From a virus: DNA of 25,744 nt. The stretch's first letter is position 1. Every line of letters starts with the position of its first letter. Of the stretch, positions 1,098-8,076 are shown one piece after another. Under the pieces are notes generated by a model, which was not told where the DNA came from, searched no databases, and was given only the letters and a program-made list of their open reading frames with translations. Location: positions 1 through 25,744 of the IMG/VR virus record IMGVR_UViG_3300031227_000373. One strand, 5' to 3'. The translations under genes and the position numbers were made by a program.

Positions 1098-1820
1098 ATG
1101 GATACACCGGAAAAACTCACAATAAGTTCAGCGCTTACAAACTATTCTGAGAAAAATAGTTCAAGCTGGTTTAATCAGTTAGTACCTTATCTAGAAGGTT
1201 ACGATAATGTTTCTCTAACTGAAACTGAGATTAAACTTATATCTAGGATAACAGAAGAACAGGATGCTGGTATCTTACGTCATATCCCTGTTATTTGTAA
1301 AGGTCCAGATTGTCCTTTCGCGGCAACCTGTCCTTTTATAGCAATTTGGAAGAAGGCAGAGAAAGAAGGAGCTGAGGATGCTAGTAGAAAGCTTCCTTTA
1401 GATCAACCTTGTCCATTAGAAAAAAGAACCTTAATTGTTAGAACGGCTCATTATGCAGATGAATTGAATGTCGCTCCTCAGAATAAAATGGAACTATCTT
1501 TATGTGTAGAGCTTGCCGAACTTGATGTCTTTAGTGAAAGATTAAACTATTATCTTTCGTCTAATCTTAAACAAGCAGAACTGATAGAAGATGAAATCGC
1601 TACTATTACAGAAGACGGAGAAGCTATCTATCGTAAAGTTATCTCCCCTGCTATAGAATTAAAACTCAAACTTGCTGCTCGCCGCTCCAAGATCCAATCT
1701 GATTTACTAGCTACTAGAAAAGCTAAGATGTCTGTTCTTAAAGATACAGGTAAGAATCAAACAGCAGCAGGGCTTATGGCTGAAATTAAGAGTGCATTAG
1801 AAGCTAATAAAAAGGTGTAG
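1098..1820 (+). CDS. Four-cysteine helical protein; terminase small subunit candidate
   Basis: A 240-residue soluble protein with two visible parts. Residues 67-105 carry a cysteine cluster, C67-x4-C72-x5-C78 with C105 farther on (CKGPDCPFAATCPF, then QPCPLEK), suited to a zinc or iron-sulfur site. Residues 130-212 are helical and charged, followed by a basic stretch around ATRKAK (205-210) that could contact nucleic acid. Position at the head of the block leading to the large terminase, size and helical make-up fit a terminase small subunit, but no helix-turn-helix can be shown by eye and the cysteine cluster is not typical of that family. Alternatives are a DNA-binding or virion accessory protein. 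It starts one base after the previous stop and ends two bases before the dual nuclease gene. Confidence 0.75.
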   Translation: MDTPEKLTISSALTNYSEKNSSSWFNQLVPYLEGYDNVSLTETEIKLISRITEEQDAGILRHIPVICKGPDCPFAATCPFIAIWKKAEKEGAEDASRKLPLDQPCPLEKRTLIVRTAHYADELNVAPQNKMELSLCVELAELDVFSERLNYYLSSNLKQAELIEDEIATITEDGEAIYRKVISPAIELKLKLAARRSKIQSDLLATRKAKMSVLKDTGKNQTAAGLMAEIKSALEANKKV

Positions 1821-1822
1821 CT

Positions 1823-4183
1823 ATGACTTCTTTTTCAGAAGCTTATGAACAGAAGCTCGCTCCTGTCTATAAAAAACTAGGAGTCGATAGAACTAGCTTA
1901 GGTTCTAAGGGTTTAAGAAGAGCTGCTTTCTTAGATATTGAAACTACTGGATTAAGTCCTACATTAGATGCAATGCATGAAGCTGCTGTGGCTTATTACA
2001 AGCCCGGTGGTGAGGTTTCAGTCCCATCCCCTATAGGAACTAGGGGTATGTATATCAAACCCGTTACAGCGGCAGGAGAGGTTACACCGTGGGAATCTGT
2101 AAACCCCTGGGTCAAGAAGTCTTTAATAGGAAGATTTGAAGGAAGGAAAGATGCTGATGCATTAGCTCGACAGCTTTATCTTAAGAAGGTAGGTCAAGGA
2201 GTAGAGAGTAAGGGTGCTATAAATCAGATCTATTCTTTATTAAATAAAAGAGATCTATGGGTACAGAACTTACAATTTGAGTCTTCTTTCTTAGAACAGT
2301 TTGGAGATACACGAGATTTCGAAAACTTTATGTTAAAAAATCGCGTATATAATCCTTATCAAGTTAAAGGAAGAGGAGCTAAGAGGTTGTTTACCGCCGC
2401 CCCTGAGATAGACCAATTGGTCTCTAAGGCGTTTGTAGCTACAGGTACAGAAGAAATTTTGGGTGCATGGTCTGACGTTTTTACTAAAGGGTTTGAAAAA
2501 GAATTACCTCGTACTAGAGAATTTACTAGAGTAATAGATCTAATGTCTTTAACTCGTTCTGTTCATGCTATGGCTCAACAAAAAGGTTATATGCAAGCTA
2601 CAGGAGATCTTAGTGGAACTCTAAAAGTAAATACATTTTCAAGATTAATGATGGGAATACCAGAACCTCATACTGCTATTGGTGATGTTAGATTAGAATC
2701 TGTGATGGCAGAGTTCTACTTAAACGTTGGTGAGGCAATGTCTAAAGGAGATGAATTACCTACAGAAGTTGCTAAGTATTTCGAGAACGTAGATAAGGCG
2801 AGTAATTATTTAAGACAAAATACAGCTAAAACTCAGTTATTAGATGCTCATTCTCAATTAGCTACTGAAGGAACTTGGATTGCAAAGATGAATCCAAAAG
2901 AGAGACAGGTTCCTTTTTACGAAGCTGGTACTGGTAAAAAGCTTGGTATGAGAAGTATTTATGTGTCAGAACGGAAGAACCTTGAAGCAATTGAAGATGT
3001 AGCCGAGTTCCTTAATAATAGAAGAGAGAGAAACTTTGGCCGACTTCATGGATTAGATTATAAGAATATTTTAGAAGATCTAAAGAAAGATGTCTTTCCA
3101 AAAATAAGAGAAAATGTTAAGCAGATTGACAATAGTTATATCGTTGGTAATGCAGTTACTGCAAATGACGAAGCAAGAAAAGCTTTTAGAAATGAAGTTG
3201 AACATCAGAAATCTTATTTTACAGCAGAAGGTGATTCAATAATAGATAATGTAAACAAACTTCGAAAGAAAAATTATATTGGAGAATTACTTACACCTAA
3301 AAGACTACTAGTTGGTGGTGGTATATTAGCTGGTGGGGCATTAATATTAGGTTTGCTAATGGGAAAGGATACGGATTCAGATGTTGCAAATGATATTTCA
3401 AGTGAGTATGCGCCTATATCAAGATCTTATAAGATTATGCGAGCCTCTACTCTATCTCATTCAATACCGGAAGTATACCAATCATATACTACAGGTAAAA
3501 CAATAACCAATAAGTTAGCCTTAGCTTCTATGGAAACAGGAACAGCTCTACATAGAGTTATTCAGAAAAGAGCTTTAGCTGCTGGAGTTGCAGCAGATGT
3601 AGAAACTCCAATCTATGATGAGAAAACTGGTATCACTGGCCATGTTGATATTCTATATAAATCAGGTGTAGCGTCTGATGTCAAAACCTTATCTGATAAA
3701 AGATTTCAACAGGCTATGTATCAGGGTGAACCCTTTAGAGAGCATAGGCAACAGGTAGGGTTCTATGCACATGTTTTAGGTCAGCCATACGCTGCTGTAG
3801 AGTATGTAAGCGCAACTGATCCTTCTAAGCATTTAACTTATTCTTGGCGGGATACTGGTCAAGAGTATGAAGAAATGGTATCTAAAGCTGCTGTTGTTAG
3901 ACATATGATACACGATAGTAATATGCCAGTAACACAATATACCTCTCCTTTATATAATAAGATGAAACAAGGATTTGATAAGTTTAATGACTTTATCCTT
4001 ACTTCAAATGATACCGCTCTAAATGCCTATAAAGAAAAGAGAAAAGAATATAATGCTGTACGAAGCGGAACCTTACATGATAGAATACAGAGAGTGCAAT
4101 ATAGCACTAATACAAGGATGCAGCTATTGATGCAAAAAGAGAATGTCGTAAGACATGGACAGATAAATAACAGGGCATATTAG
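1823..4183 (+). CDS. DEDDh exonuclease - membrane segment - PD-(D/E)XK nuclease fusion protein
   Basis: Three regions are visible in 786 residues. The N-terminal DnaQ-like 3'-5' exonuclease has Exo I at 36-43 (FLDIETTG; D38, E40), an Exo II-like stretch at 149-153 (NLQFE, Glu in place of the usual Asp) and Exo III at 283-288 (HTAIGD; H283, D288), making it DEDDh type. Residues 494-514 are a glycine-rich hydrophobic stretch (RLLVGGGILAGGALILGLLM) long enough to cross a membrane. The C-terminal RecB/Cas4-like nuclease has GTALH at 573-577, E594, GHVDIL at 606-611 (D609), SDVKT at 618-622 (D619, K621) and Q644-x3-Y648. I find no cysteine, so there is no Cas4-type Fe-S cluster. The start is supported by AAGGTG just upstream. 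The motifs make nuclease chemistry likely; a packaged, ejected or membrane-bound role is inference from the hydrophobic segment and neighbours. Confidence 0.85.
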   Translation: MTSFSEAYEQKLAPVYKKLGVDRTSLGSKGLRRAAFLDIETTGLSPTLDAMHEAAVAYYKPGGEVSVPSPIGTRGMYIKPVTAAGEVTPWESVNPWVKKSLIGRFEGRKDADALARQLYLKKVGQGVESKGAINQIYSLLNKRDLWVQNLQFESSFLEQFGDTRDFENFMLKNRVYNPYQVKGRGAKRLFTAAPEIDQLVSKAFVATGTEEILGAWSDVFTKGFEKELPRTREFTRVIDLMSLTRSVHAMAQQKGYMQATGDLSGTLKVNTFSRLMMGIPEPHTAIGDVRLESVMAEFYLNVGEAMSKGDELPTEVAKYFENVDKASNYLRQNTAKTQLLDAHSQLATEGTWIAKMNPKERQVPFYEAGTGKKLGMRSIYVSERKNLEAIEDVAEFLNNRRERNFGRLHGLDYKNILEDLKKDVFPKIRENVKQIDNSYIVGNAVTANDEARKAFRNEVEHQKSYFTAEGDSIIDNVNKLRKKNYIGELLTPKRLLVGGGILAGGALILGLLMGKDTDSDVANDISSEYAPISRSYKIMRASTLSHSIPEVYQSYTTGKTITNKLALASMETGTALHRVIQKRALAAGVAADVETPIYDEKTGITGHVDILYKSGVASDVKTLSDKRFQQAMYQGEPFREHRQQVGFYAHVLGQPYAAVEYVSATDPSKHLTYSWRDTGQEYEEMVSKAAVVRHMIHDSNMPVTQYTSPLYNKMKQGFDKFNDFILTSNDTALNAYKEKRKEYNAVRSGTLHDRIQRVQYSTNTRMQLLMQKENVVRHGQINNRAY

Positions 4184-4185
4184 AT

Positions 4186-4998
4186 ATGGGATTTGTTAGG
4201 GAATCAGGCAGAGAAATCGGTGATGTTTTAAAAGCTGGTGCTAGAGAGGCAGCGCAGCTACCTTTCTTAGGTGCTTGGGTTAGTGGTAAAGCTCTTTGGA
4301 AAGGTGTAGGTCATGCCGCTTCTTTAACGGGTTATGGTCTCATACCTGGTTATTATGCAGGTAAGGGTGCAGTTGAATTATCTAAAATGTATATGGGGAC
4401 GCGGAGAGATCTAGCGGGAGCTTTCTACGGCACTAATAAAATGACTCGTGAAGCTCACGGTGCTTTGGAGAGAGTCTTTTGGCCTACAGGTAAAGTAACA
4501 AGGTTTCTAAGTAGAAATCCTTTAGAACATATCAATGCTGGATTAGAAACAACAGCAAGAAGTTTCAAGCCTTCTTACTTAGGTATGGAACTTGGTGTCT
4601 CTACATTATTTGCAGCAATGGCTACTGATTATAGAGACATGTTGAAGCCGGAAGGTTTTGCTCGTGAATTTACTTCTATGTCAATGTATGCTCCCGGTTG
4701 GGTAGCTGGAGGTATGGCAGGAGCAGCGATAGGTTCAGCTATACTTCCTGGTATTGGTACAGCAGTAGGCTATCTTGCAGGTGCTTTTATGGGATCAGAG
4801 ATGACTGAAAGTGTAGCAATGTTACCATGGGAGTTGGCAGAGCGAGGAAAGAAACTTAGATACCAAAGAACTATGCCAACATATATAGATACTCCTAGAG
4901 CAGCTACTTCAAGACAAAGAGCAATGGGAGCTATATATCAAAGTCAATTAAATGCAAGATCTTCTCTTGGTATGGAGGCCATAACTTATCACCGATGA
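4186..4998 (+). CDS. Glycine-zipper membrane-like protein, possible internal or ejected virion protein
   Basis: I do not recognise a named family. The 270-residue product is rich in Gly and Ala and lacks cysteine. Residues 171-203 form a long small-residue hydrophobic run with GxxxG-type spacing (GWVAGGMAGAAIGSAI, then GIGTAVGYLAGAFMG), a glycine zipper able to insert in or oligomerise on membranes; 134-147 and 26-58 are further hydrophobic stretches. The C-terminal 50 residues are basic and polar. It starts two bases after the dual-nuclease gene and overlaps the HNH gene by four bases (ATGA), so all three are coupled. Such proteins near head genes may be internal or ejection proteins that form a channel, but holin-like or membrane-anchor roles are also possible. 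Confidence 0.75.
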   Translation: MGFVRESGREIGDVLKAGAREAAQLPFLGAWVSGKALWKGVGHAASLTGYGLIPGYYAGKGAVELSKMYMGTRRDLAGAFYGTNKMTREAHGALERVFWPTGKVTRFLSRNPLEHINAGLETTARSFKPSYLGMELGVSTLFAAMATDYRDMLKPEGFAREFTSMSMYAPGWVAGGMAGAAIGSAILPGIGTAVGYLAGAFMGSEMTESVAMLPWELAERGKKLRYQRTMPTYIDTPRAATSRQRAMGAIYQSQLNARSSLGMEAITYHR

Positions 4999-5339
4999 GA
5001 AAGAAAAAGAAAAGAAGAAAGATAAAGGTAAGGACTACTCCTGTATTAAGAAGAAAAGTAAGGAAAGTAGTTTATAATAGTGCTGTTTATAAGAAATGGA
5101 GAGCTAAGGTATTTGAGAGAGATTTATTTACATGTCAGATGTGTGGTAAAAAAGGCGGATATTTAGAAGCACATCATATCTTTCCTAAGGCAAAATATCC
5201 CAAATTGGTATTAGTAATAAGTAATGGTATTACACTATGTAAAAAATGTCATATTAAAGTAACAGGTAAAGAACTTAAATATGTCGATAGATTAACGAAG
5301 ATTTTAAAGGATAAAAAGAGATGTTTCAATCGCAAATAA
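4995..5339 (+). CDS. HNH endonuclease next to the terminase
   Basis: A 114-residue HNH nuclease. The first 25 residues are strongly basic (KKKKRRKIKVR) and may bind DNA. The core contains C47-x2-C50 (TCQMCGK), the HH pair at 60-61 (LEAHHIFP), N77 in SNGITLC, and C82-x2-C85-H86, i.e. the His-Asn-His catalytic set in a zinc-stabilised beta-beta-alpha-metal fold. Short HNH proteins encoded beside the terminase and portal of many cos-type phages (HK97 gp74 is the known example) cooperate with the terminase in cutting genome ends; the position here suggests the same job. A free-standing homing endonuclease is the main alternative, but the ATGA overlap with the gene before and the 19-base overlap with the gene after argue that it is an integral member of the operon. 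Confidence 0.88.
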   Translation: MRKKKKRRKIKVRTTPVLRRKVRKVVYNSAVYKKWRAKVFERDLFTCQMCGKKGGYLEAHHIFPKAKYPKLVLVISNGITLCKKCHIKVTGKELKYVDRLTKILKDKKRCFNRK

Positions 5340-6133
5340 ATACTCCTCCAAGTAACAACGCTTGGTCAGGTGCAAGTTTAGCAATAGGTGTGGCAGGAAG
5401 TCTAATGGGAATAGGAGCAGTAGCGAAGTTATGGGGAAGAATTGGACCCAAGACTTCGTCTTTGGCAAGGTCTGGCTCTTTCTGGGGAGATGTTCTTGGA
5501 AAAGCAACTCGTCCCGGTGGAAACTATTCTCCTTTGAGAAGACTGGGTGCAGAATTTGTAGGACCCGGTGGAGCAAAGGGATTTGGAAAAAGTGCGTTGA
5601 ATTACTTTTCAGGAGCTGGATATGCAAATAGAGGTTTTGTAGGTGGAGCAAGAACAGGTGGATTACTTGCTGGAAGCATGGCCTTATCTTATGCAAACCC
5701 CTTTACTGATTCTGGTGATATAAGTGGAACTCTAGGGACAGCAGGAATGCTTCTTGGTGGTTCTGCTTTGTATAAATTTGGTAGAAGAGGTTATGCAAAT
5801 AAATTTATGAAACCTGACGCTATAAGAAAAGATTTGAGTGTAGCTAGAACTCGTGCTAAAAAAGCTTTTGGCCCAATTGGTAGAACTCTTAATAGTCCTA
5901 GTACTAATAAGCCTGTGCAATCTATCAGTGATTATTTTTCTAGTATGGGTGCTTCACCTGGAGCATCTAAAAGTGTGCATGGTAGAAAAGGAGCTATACC
6001 TCGACAGTCCACAGTTATGTCTATGGCTGGTGGCGGAGGTATGATGCCTTCAATGAATGTACAGAATATAAGTAGAAGAAAATACAGTGCTCCTAATTTT
6101 ACAGATGCAAGTATAGGTGGATTCTTTAAGTGA
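5321..6133 (+). CDS. Glycine-rich protein with several hydrophobic segments, possible internal virion protein
   Basis: Unrecognised 270-residue protein, the same length as the other glycine-zipper protein and likewise free of cysteine. Hydrophobic small-residue segments lie at about 17-38 (GASLAIGVAGSLMGIGAVAKL), 109-124 and 136-152. The middle and end are basic and Gly/Ser-rich, with a low-complexity MAGGGGMMPSMN stretch at 235-246 and a conspicuous aromatic C-terminus (IGGFFK). The start at 5321 overlaps the HNH gene by 19 bases and has AAAGG about 10 bases upstream; a shorter start at 5405 (M29) is possible but would leave a gap unlike the rest of the operon. Its stop overlaps the GTG of the terminase gene. 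A membrane-active virion role is inferred from composition and context only. Confidence 0.75.
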   Translation: MFQSQINTPPSNNAWSGASLAIGVAGSLMGIGAVAKLWGRIGPKTSSLARSGSFWGDVLGKATRPGGNYSPLRRLGAEFVGPGGAKGFGKSALNYFSGAGYANRGFVGGARTGGLLAGSMALSYANPFTDSGDISGTLGTAGMLLGGSALYKFGRRGYANKFMKPDAIRKDLSVARTRAKKAFGPIGRTLNSPSTNKPVQSISDYFSSMGASPGASKSVHGRKGAIPRQSTVMSMAGGGGMMPSMNVQNISRRKYSAPNFTDASIGGFFK

Positions 6134-8076
6134 CAGTAGACCTAAAAAAATATCCAGACTATTTACATCCCTATTGCAAGAAATGTATTGAGGAGAATAC
6201 TCTTAAAAAGGATGTAATTGAAGATGGGAAAGTAGTACACAAAACCGGCAAGTTTTGTATTAAGTGTACCGGTATACCAAAAGACTTTTATAAGTATGTA
6301 GAACATTTTATTGTAGGAGAAGATATCTGGGCTTCGTATTCTGAAGAGAAAAGAGAATATGTTACCAGTTTATATAGTCCTACTATTTGGGCTAAGAATA
6401 ACTTACATGCTCAAGGTGGCAAAGAACCTTTTTATACAAGATCCGCAACTAAAGCTAATATTAAAAAGTATGATTTAGAAGATGGTGCGGATGAATACCA
6501 ATTCCTATTAATGGAATGTACCTCTCTTGAGACAGTATGTCGTTTAGGAAGACGCACAGGTAAAACTTACGGCACCGCTGCTAAGACACTATGGAAGATG
6601 TTTACAAGGGAAAGATTAGAAGTTCTACTTGTAACACCTATGGTTTCTCATTTAGAAACTATGTTCTCTCAGATTAAAGATTTTATATATAATGAACCTC
6701 ATCTTAAAGCTTCTGTAGTTACTGATAAGGGACAGCCTTATCCTGTTATAAAACTAGATAACGGTTCTGTTATTAGAGGATTTCCTTCAGGACAGGGTGA
6801 GAAAGAGAATACAGCTATTCGTAGTAAAGCTTGTCAAGATCTAATAGGTGATGAAGCAGACTTTATTAATGAAGCTACTATGTCTGTTGCTTTAGCTCTT
6901 TTAATGGATCAGAAGGATGTTCCGCAAACCCTAACCTCTACTCCATGTGGTCGGAGAGATTATTTTTATGACCAAGATATGTCTCCAGAAACAAAATCTT
7001 TTTGGTTTCCAAGCATGGTAAGTCCCGTTTGGGATGAGTCTATGGAACGTAGGATTAAGAAACAATATCCAACAAAATTAGCTTATACACATGAGGTTCT
7101 AGCAAAGTACGGTTCTCAGGAAGCTGGTGTCTTTCAGATAGGTTATGTAGACGCTGCTAGAGCTAAGTATAGATACTATGCTGGAGATGCTGAAAATCCA
7201 ATGGAATTCGGTGGCCCCGAACCTGGATGGGTGTATCTCATGGGAGTAGATTGGAATCCTGAAGCCGGTGTTGAGATAGTAATGATAGGTGTTAAACAAG
7301 AGAAGTCAGCAACTAAGGTAAGGGTTGTAGATGCTTTTCATATAGAGAAGGAAGCCTTTAGTCAGGTGAAAGCTAACGAAAAGATAATAGAAATGAATAG
7401 GATATATAATCCTAGTAAAATATATATTGATGATGGTGGCGGCGGATCAACTGCAATAGAATATTTACATGCCTTTTCTTTTGATTTACAGAACGAGAAG
7501 ACTGCTCAAGAAGCAGATGTAAGAATACTAGAAATCGCTAAAGGTATAAACTTTGGTAGTCAAATAGAAACAAAGGACCCTTTTACTGGTGAAGATAAAA
7601 AACGCCCAATGAAACCTTTCATGGTTGAAAACGCGGTAAGATTTTTTGAACAATTTAGAATAGAAATATCTGAATATGACGAGAAATTAGTTAAGCAATT
7701 AGAAGAATATGTTATTAAGAATATATCTCCTAATGGTGTTCCGACTTACACAGTTAAAAGTACTAATGTACAAGACCATAGATTAGATGCTTTAATGTTA
7801 GCCTTACTTGCTTTAACAATGGAATCATCTTATCTAGGTAGAGTAGCAGAAGATAATATAGGTGTTTCGTTTGTAAAACTACCACATCTAGGTAACTTTA
7901 CAAGTGAGGAAGAAGAGAAGAAGAAGACAGAAGACGGCACATTTATGGAAAATAAAAAGCAGGATGCTCTATCAGCCAAAAGTCCTACTATACCTAGATC
8001 GGGTAGAACTAGCATTACTGGCAAAAGAGTGGTAAAATCGAGGCATGGATCTCGACCACATAGAACAAATATTTAG
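6130..8076 (+). CDS. terL: Terminase large subunit (packaging ATPase and nuclease)
   Basis: This is the motor that translocates DNA through the portal into the prohead and cuts the genome. The ATPase part shows Walker A at 138-146 (RLGRRTGKT), Walker B at 238-242 (LIGDE; catalytic E242) and a coupling motif around 268-272 (LTSTP). The C-terminal RNase H-fold nuclease shows acidic residues D374 (MGVDWN), D434/D435 (IYIDDGGGGS) and D553 (HRLDAL). At 648 residues it is longer than many TerL proteins because of an N-terminal extension with two CxxC pairs (C16/C19 and C43/C46), a likely zinc knuckle, and a Lys/Arg/Ser-rich tail after about 590. It starts with GTG, overlapping the previous stop (GTGA). 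The family is certain; packaging type is not visible. Confidence 0.97.
   Translation: MTVDLKKYPDYLHPYCKKCIEENTLKKDVIEDGKVVHKTGKFCIKCTGIPKDFYKYVEHFIVGEDIWASYSEEKREYVTSLYSPTIWAKNNLHAQGGKEPFYTRSATKANIKKYDLEDGADEYQFLLMECTSLETVCRLGRRTGKTYGTAAKTLWKMFTRERLEVLLVTPMVSHLETMFSQIKDFIYNEPHLKASVVTDKGQPYPVIKLDNGSVIRGFPSGQGEKENTAIRSKACQDLIGDEADFINEATMSVALALLMDQKDVPQTLTSTPCGRRDYFYDQDMSPETKSFWFPSMVSPVWDESMERRIKKQYPTKLAYTHEVLAKYGSQEAGVFQIGYVDAARAKYRYYAGDAENPMEFGGPEPGWVYLMGVDWNPEAGVEIVMIGVKQEKSATKVRVVDAFHIEKEAFSQVKANEKIIEMNRIYNPSKIYIDDGGGGSTAIEYLHAFSFDLQNEKTAQEADVRILEIAKGINFGSQIETKDPFTGEDKKRPMKPFMVENAVRFFEQFRIEISEYDEKLVKQLEEYVIKNISPNGVPTYTVKSTNVQDHRLDALMLALLALTMESSYLGRVAEDNIGVSFVKLPHLGNFTSEEEEKKKTEDGTFMENKKQDALSAKSPTIPRSGRTSITGKRVVKSRHGSRPHRTNI

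Follow-up and report, generated by a model that had tools for sequence, protein, structure and literature searches.

A predicted double nuclease with a membrane-type segment is a variant of a modular protein family encoded upstream of the terminase gene in large, mostly uncultured phages

Background

The T7-type internal proteins are head proteins that are delivered together with the phage DNA. Ejection proteins are described for the giant Salmonella phage SPN3US (PMC5694885). Polyvalent proteins, known from phages and from conjugative elements, unite several enzyme domains in a single polypeptide whose gene lies among those for the virion; they are inferred to reach the host by packaging and injection and to act there (Iyer et al. 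2017, PMC5512222). Here, we describe a gene for a predicted double nuclease in an IMG/VR virus record (IMGVR_UViG_3300031227_000373). The entire record of 25,744 bases, which is probably a genome fragment, was analyzed and is referred to below as the window. The product of this gene, P0001, includes a DEDDh exonuclease domain, a Gly-rich hydrophobic segment of the membrane type and a PD-(D/E)XK nuclease domain.

Comparison of P0001 with the described systems revealed both similarities and differences. As in the polyvalent proteins, two enzyme domains are joined in a product of the virion gene region; unlike in them, domains typical of that class were not found (no Pfam match). In the main text of the same publication, as searched, the terms RNase H, SNase (staphylococcal-type nuclease), REase and transmembrane are absent, and the combination of a DEDDh domain, a hydrophobic segment and an exchangeable nuclease was not found; SNase and DEDD are likewise absent as terms from a jumbo-phage overview (PMC7824862) searched in the same way. 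The likeness to the SPN3US ejection proteins and to the T7-type internal proteins lies in the working idea of head proteins that would accompany the DNA and in the Gly-rich hydrophobic proteins of the P0001 operon. The C-terminal domain has the fold and active-site residues of the lambda exonuclease, RecE and Cas4 type but is fused to another nuclease, lacks iron-sulfur (Fe-S) cysteines and is encoded in a head operon. The only annotated relative found, apart from a partial match in phage PBAB25, is ME3_11 of Acinetobacter phage vB_AbaM_ME3; it has a related DEDDh domain and a Gly-rich hydrophobic segment near its end and is encoded two genes upstream of the terminase gene, but stops shortly after the hydrophobic segment and has no second nuclease. 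A literature search, mostly outside subscription journals, found no paper joining the three features, and the statement of the first-pass annotation that no described family has this domain order held for all libraries and literature searched.

Domain architecture of P0001

P0001 is encoded by a single open frame (1823-4183, plus strand) without internal stops and consists of 786 amino acids (aa). Its gene is separated by 2 bases from the preceding gene and by 2 bases from the next one.

A search with DnaQ-type profiles, proposed as a check in the first-pass annotation, matched residues 32-160 to the DnaQ-like exonuclease family phrog_192 of PHROG (E-value 1.8e-6), and the DEDDh profile of PADLOC also matches the protein (E-value 1.8e-5). 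A profile built from the related proteins of contigs L010, L006 and L016, with the window left out, recovered the N-terminal part of P0001 with an E-value of 1.6e-60 and ME3_11 with an E-value of 1.2e-11. The order expected for DEDDh exonucleases, namely D-x-E, an acidic motif II residue and H-x4-D, is kept in P0001, and the invariant columns of a nine-sequence alignment are M1, D38, E40, N149, H283 and D288. The motif II residue is Glu in the window, L010, L006, L016, ME3_11 and a "marine" subgroup (a label of convenience, not drawn from habitat records), and Asp in L122, L141 and the L026 clade. Thirteen marine-type proteins have D14/E16, N207-F210-E211, E357-x-H359 and D364 among their near-invariant residues, and the signature N-x2-F-E plus E-x-H-x4-D is common to these proteins and the window. 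Among PDB sequences, no match was obtained either to the N-terminal profile or to the N-terminal domain of L122. Profile-profile comparison did not join the DEDDh group of the window to the L026 clade (23% probability) or to L012/L014 (11%), and thus these links are based on the motifs, the PHROG family and the gene slot.

The second domain matches the Cas4-like family phrog_1706 at residues 565-714 (E-value 2e-15) in the search with Cas4/RecB-type profiles, which had been proposed as a further check, and the Cas4 profile of PADLOC (E-value 3.9e-7). Stand-alone Cas4-like nucleases of about 252-260 aa from Streptomyces and Rhodococcus phages and IMG/VR contigs align with it at E594, D609, D619-x-K621, Q644 and Y648. 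When the alignment of these stand-alone nucleases was used for ColabFold modeling, the core was predicted confidently (residues 53-177 of the modeled piece, with blocks of predicted local distance difference test score, pLDDT, of about 65-91), the remainder poorly, and Foldseek comparison of the model with PDB retrieved LHK-Exo, RecE, Cas4 SSO0001, lambda exonuclease and MGME1, each with probability 1.00. The alpha-beta-beta-beta-alpha-beta core with E, D and (D/E)xK that characterizes the PD-(D/E)XK superfamily is present in the model of P0001. The predicted PD-(D/E)XK fold of this domain is thus well supported. Assignment of the domain to Cas4 itself was rejected: the 786 residues of P0001 include no Cys, whereas cysteines of the Fe-S type are present in the stand-alone relatives. 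The curated Cas4 family TIGR00372 (NCBIfam) scored 24.9 bits on P0001 against a cut-off of 65.

Between the two nucleases, the 19-residue hydrophobic maximum of the protein covers residues 495-513 (LLVGGGILAGGALILGLLM). Its mean Kyte-Doolittle hydropathy of 2.26 was reached in 45 of 5000 shuffles of P0001. Similar Gly-rich hydrophobic segments occur at the matching place in L016, L010, L006 and L122 and near the end of ME3_11; the scan for such segments was passed by the window and about a dozen other family proteins, and more were recognized by eye.

The reading of the gene in the first-pass annotation, two nucleases joined through a membrane-type segment, was largely borne out: the hydrophobic stretch lies at residues 494-514, and the PD-(D/E)XK residues E594, D609, D619-x-K621, Q644 and Y648 are placed as described, within a fold predicted by ColabFold and Foldseek. 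For the DEDDh domain, which matches a DnaQ profile and is assigned by sequence, D38/E40, E153 and H283/D288 are in place and align in homologs. Alignment of the motifs in homologs had been chosen beforehand as one comparison that could overturn this reading, and the catalytic positions of both nucleases align in relatives.

A second occurrence of the fusion

The same domain order was found in L122, where a 1012-aa protein (L122:6003-9041) includes a DEDDh domain (profile E-value 6.8e-27), a hydrophobic Gly-rich segment accompanied by the linker of the family (described below), and a PD-(D/E)XK domain. The latter is 37% identical to that of the window (E-value 2e-21) and keeps E594, D609 and K621; after it come a linker and HESFH, a sequence of zinc-protease appearance. 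A further scan of these collections revealed no third case of a DEDDh domain, a hydrophobic segment and a PD-(D/E)XK domain in this order. Because L122 repeats the order and no third case was found, the fusion is considered real and rare in these collections. An assembly chimera was judged unlikely, as L122 has the identical domain order and the genes flanking P0001 correspond to those found in relatives.

The protein family upstream of the terminase gene

Scans for close relatives with P0001 as the sole query gave no match, and relatives were found via the terminase gene and the downstream Gly-zipper gene. In the related contigs, the corresponding gene slot, ahead of the large terminase gene, is occupied by a protein of 530-2085 aa, usually with a DEDDh domain and often with a Gly-rich hydrophobic segment; its neighbors are homologs of gene 1098-1820 on the upstream side and of gene 4186-4998 on the downstream side. 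The location among packaging genes noted at first reading is a conserved slot. L010, L006, L016 and ME3_11 have the N-terminal part in common with P0001. Among 45 non-identical proteins, a set with some near-duplicate rows and two proteins cut at contig ends, the three exonuclease motifs were found in 38 by loose pattern counts, SNase domains in 20 and PD-(D/E)XK domains in two.

Other components were observed in a subset of the family. The SNase domains match Pfam with E-values from 2e-10 to 4e-22, kinase-like domains are present in L016 and L012, a DnaJ-like match in L014 is below the curated cut-off, and zinc-protease-like HExxH or HExxE sequences were recognized by eye. L007 and L018 lack a recognizable DEDDh domain. 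We conclude that P0001 is the PD-(D/E)XK variant of a modular protein family encoded in the head/packaging operon of large, mostly uncultured ME3-related phages. Because relatives place a staphylococcal-type nuclease, a kinase-like, a protease-like or a chaperone domain at the position of its second nuclease, the latter would be swappable cargo.

A repeated linker, approximately SGxDDxYNxIEGLxHxGxAGxxRxxxTDFGSGxxG, was observed between enzyme modules, with as many as four or five copies in one protein. It was considered as a candidate site for a maturation protease. It is carried by the large proteins upstream of terminase in L010, L006, L016, L014, L012, L007, L018, L122 and L141 and is absent from P0001. 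Many family members end with a short I/V-x-H-x-x-M/I tail, which the VVRHGQI of the window resembles by eye, without a statistic. In the 2085-aa protein of L010 (L010:1454-7711), a possible ADP-ribosyltransferase-like stretch near the end (residues about 1840-2040, FFHGTPIANRANILAEGL) was recognized by eye only.

Proposed role and alternatives

The most likely reading, to which we give about an even chance, is that P0001 acts on the host as a modular effector that the head carries and ejects. The protein would be packaged in the phage head and leave it together with the DNA, the hydrophobic segment would hold it at the inner membrane close to where the DNA enters, and the two nucleases of different type would attack host DNA or nucleic acids of a defence response. 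We infer carriage and delivery from the operon and from the host-acting enzyme types in relatives, which are hard to explain by a packaging role; delivery becomes more likely because the slot protein of relatives carries kinase-like, protease-like and chaperone domains, and host-directed enzymes within a single head-operon protein recall the polyvalent proteins of PMC5512222. An extension of this reading to the whole group is possible but doubtful: these uncultured jumbo-type phages may inject a membrane-anchored double nuclease composed of a fixed DEDDh exonuclease and an exchangeable SNase or PD-(D/E)XK domain, to which some lineages would add kinase, protease or chaperone modules; this would be an effector system delivered from the head and distinct from the polyvalent proteins described so far.

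Several observations weigh against a delivered effector. Since the segment is preceded by basic and followed by acidic residues, the positive-inside rule would leave one nuclease on each side of the host inner membrane, an arrangement that fits a simple DNA-degrading role badly. The segment could instead be buried on folding or form a self-association helix. Motif II of P0001 ends in E153 and not in the canonical Asp, the full-length ColabFold model built with five sequences (mean pLDDT 39.5) gives no usable DEDDh structure, and no Pfam family was found in P0001 at E-values up to 1. Several family members, ME3_11 and the L026 clade among them, have no detected second enzyme, and virion proteomics for any family member was not found in the literature searched.

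The gene position would also suit a nuclease for packaging or head maturation, acting in the producing cell on concatemers or stalled DNA ends or as the head is completed, and not delivered: the gene adjoins the terminase gene in a conserved position, the ME3 gene just upstream is annotated as a head completion protein, and nucleases take part in packaging of known phages. We consider this unlikely, as the kinase-like, protease-like and DnaJ domains of relatives have no obvious role in packaging, for which the hydrophobic segment is also unnecessary. Similarly improbable is a late or middle enzyme that serves DNA metabolism or the takeover of the host, membrane-bound in the cell and never in the virion, for which the operon position is incidental. 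DnaQ-like exonucleases are the usual partners of replication, and RuvC-like resolvase genes adjoin the genes of stand-alone Cas4-like phage nucleases; the conserved block, however, consists of the Gly-zipper and terminase genes and not of replication genes. An internal structural protein with nuclease folds that are no longer active would explain the Glu of motif II in several subgroups and the low overall similarity, but is very improbable given that the catalytic positions are invariant columns in diverged relatives and that E594, D609 and K621 are kept in L122.

With the family described, an isolated oddity becomes a testable system, namely a conserved terminase-adjacent slot that, in many large uncultured phages, encodes a multi-enzyme protein in which the exonuclease is fixed and other parts are swappable. 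If delivered at infection, such proteins would show how these phages act on the host before phage gene expression, and delivery could be tested directly in ME3, which is cultured.

Neighboring genes

Table 1. Positions of P0001, its domains and motifs, and the neighboring genes in the window
Feature	Positions	Strand	Evidence or remark
240-aa gene directly upstream of P0001, four conserved Cys	1098..1820	+	homolog at the same place in relatives, phmmer 3e-22 to 4e-18
P0001: DEDDh exonuclease domain, Gly-rich hydrophobic segment, PD-(D/E)XK nuclease domain, basic tail	1823..4183	+	786 aa
DEDDh (DnaQ-like) exonuclease domain, residues about 30-310	1910..2752	+	phrog_192 and blind profile of relatives
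Exonuclease motif I, D38-I-E40	1934..1942	+	invariant in nine relatives
Exonuclease motif II, N149-L-Q-F-E153, Glu replacing canonical Asp	2267..2281	+	N-x2-F-E common to marine subgroup
Exonuclease motif III, H283-x4-D288	2669..2686	+	invariant in nine relatives
Gly-rich hydrophobic (membrane-type) segment, residues 494-514, basic residues ahead, acidic behind	3302..3364	+	hydropathy; similar segments in relatives
PD-(D/E)XK nuclease domain, residues 565-714	3515..3964	+	phrog_1706, ColabFold (core pLDDT about 75-91), Foldseek, L122 match
Catalytic residues E594, D609, D619-x-K621 (D619-V-K621)	3602..3685	+	aligned with stand-alone phage Cas4-like nucleases and L122
Q644-x3-Y648 motif of RecB/Cas4-type nucleases	3752..3766	+	conserved in stand-alone nucleases and L122
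C-terminal tail ENVVRHGQINNRAY, resembling the family I/V-x-H-x-x-M/I motif	4139..4180	+	compared by eye, no statistic
270-aa Gly-zipper protein, C-terminal end NARSSLGMEAITYH	4186..4998	+	phmmer 1.9e-23 to L016; PF13488 below cut-off
Terminase large subunit	6130..8076	+	phrog_2 E-value 7e-23; syntenic anchor for the relative search

In the product of gene 1098-1820, the residues C67, C72, C78 and C105 are invariant in seven diverged relatives and resemble a metal or Fe-S site. Homologs of the Gly-zipper gene 4186-4998 were found downstream of the nuclease gene in relatives, and the C-terminal sequence TMRQRxxxxIxxSxMNARSxLGxEAxxYH of these proteins is strongly conserved group-wide. A free-standing HNH endonuclease gene (4995-5339; PF01844, E-value 4.6e-10) is located between the Gly-zipper and terminase genes.

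The terminase large subunit of the window is related to those of MTATph1, ME3 and KLEB27-3. Large intein-like insertions near the Walker A motif were observed in the terminases of ME3 and KLEB27-3 (L004:9152-11434 and L005:5296-8250), and the terminase genes of L012, L021, L142 and L143, encoding 1013-1086 aa, may hold similar insertions.
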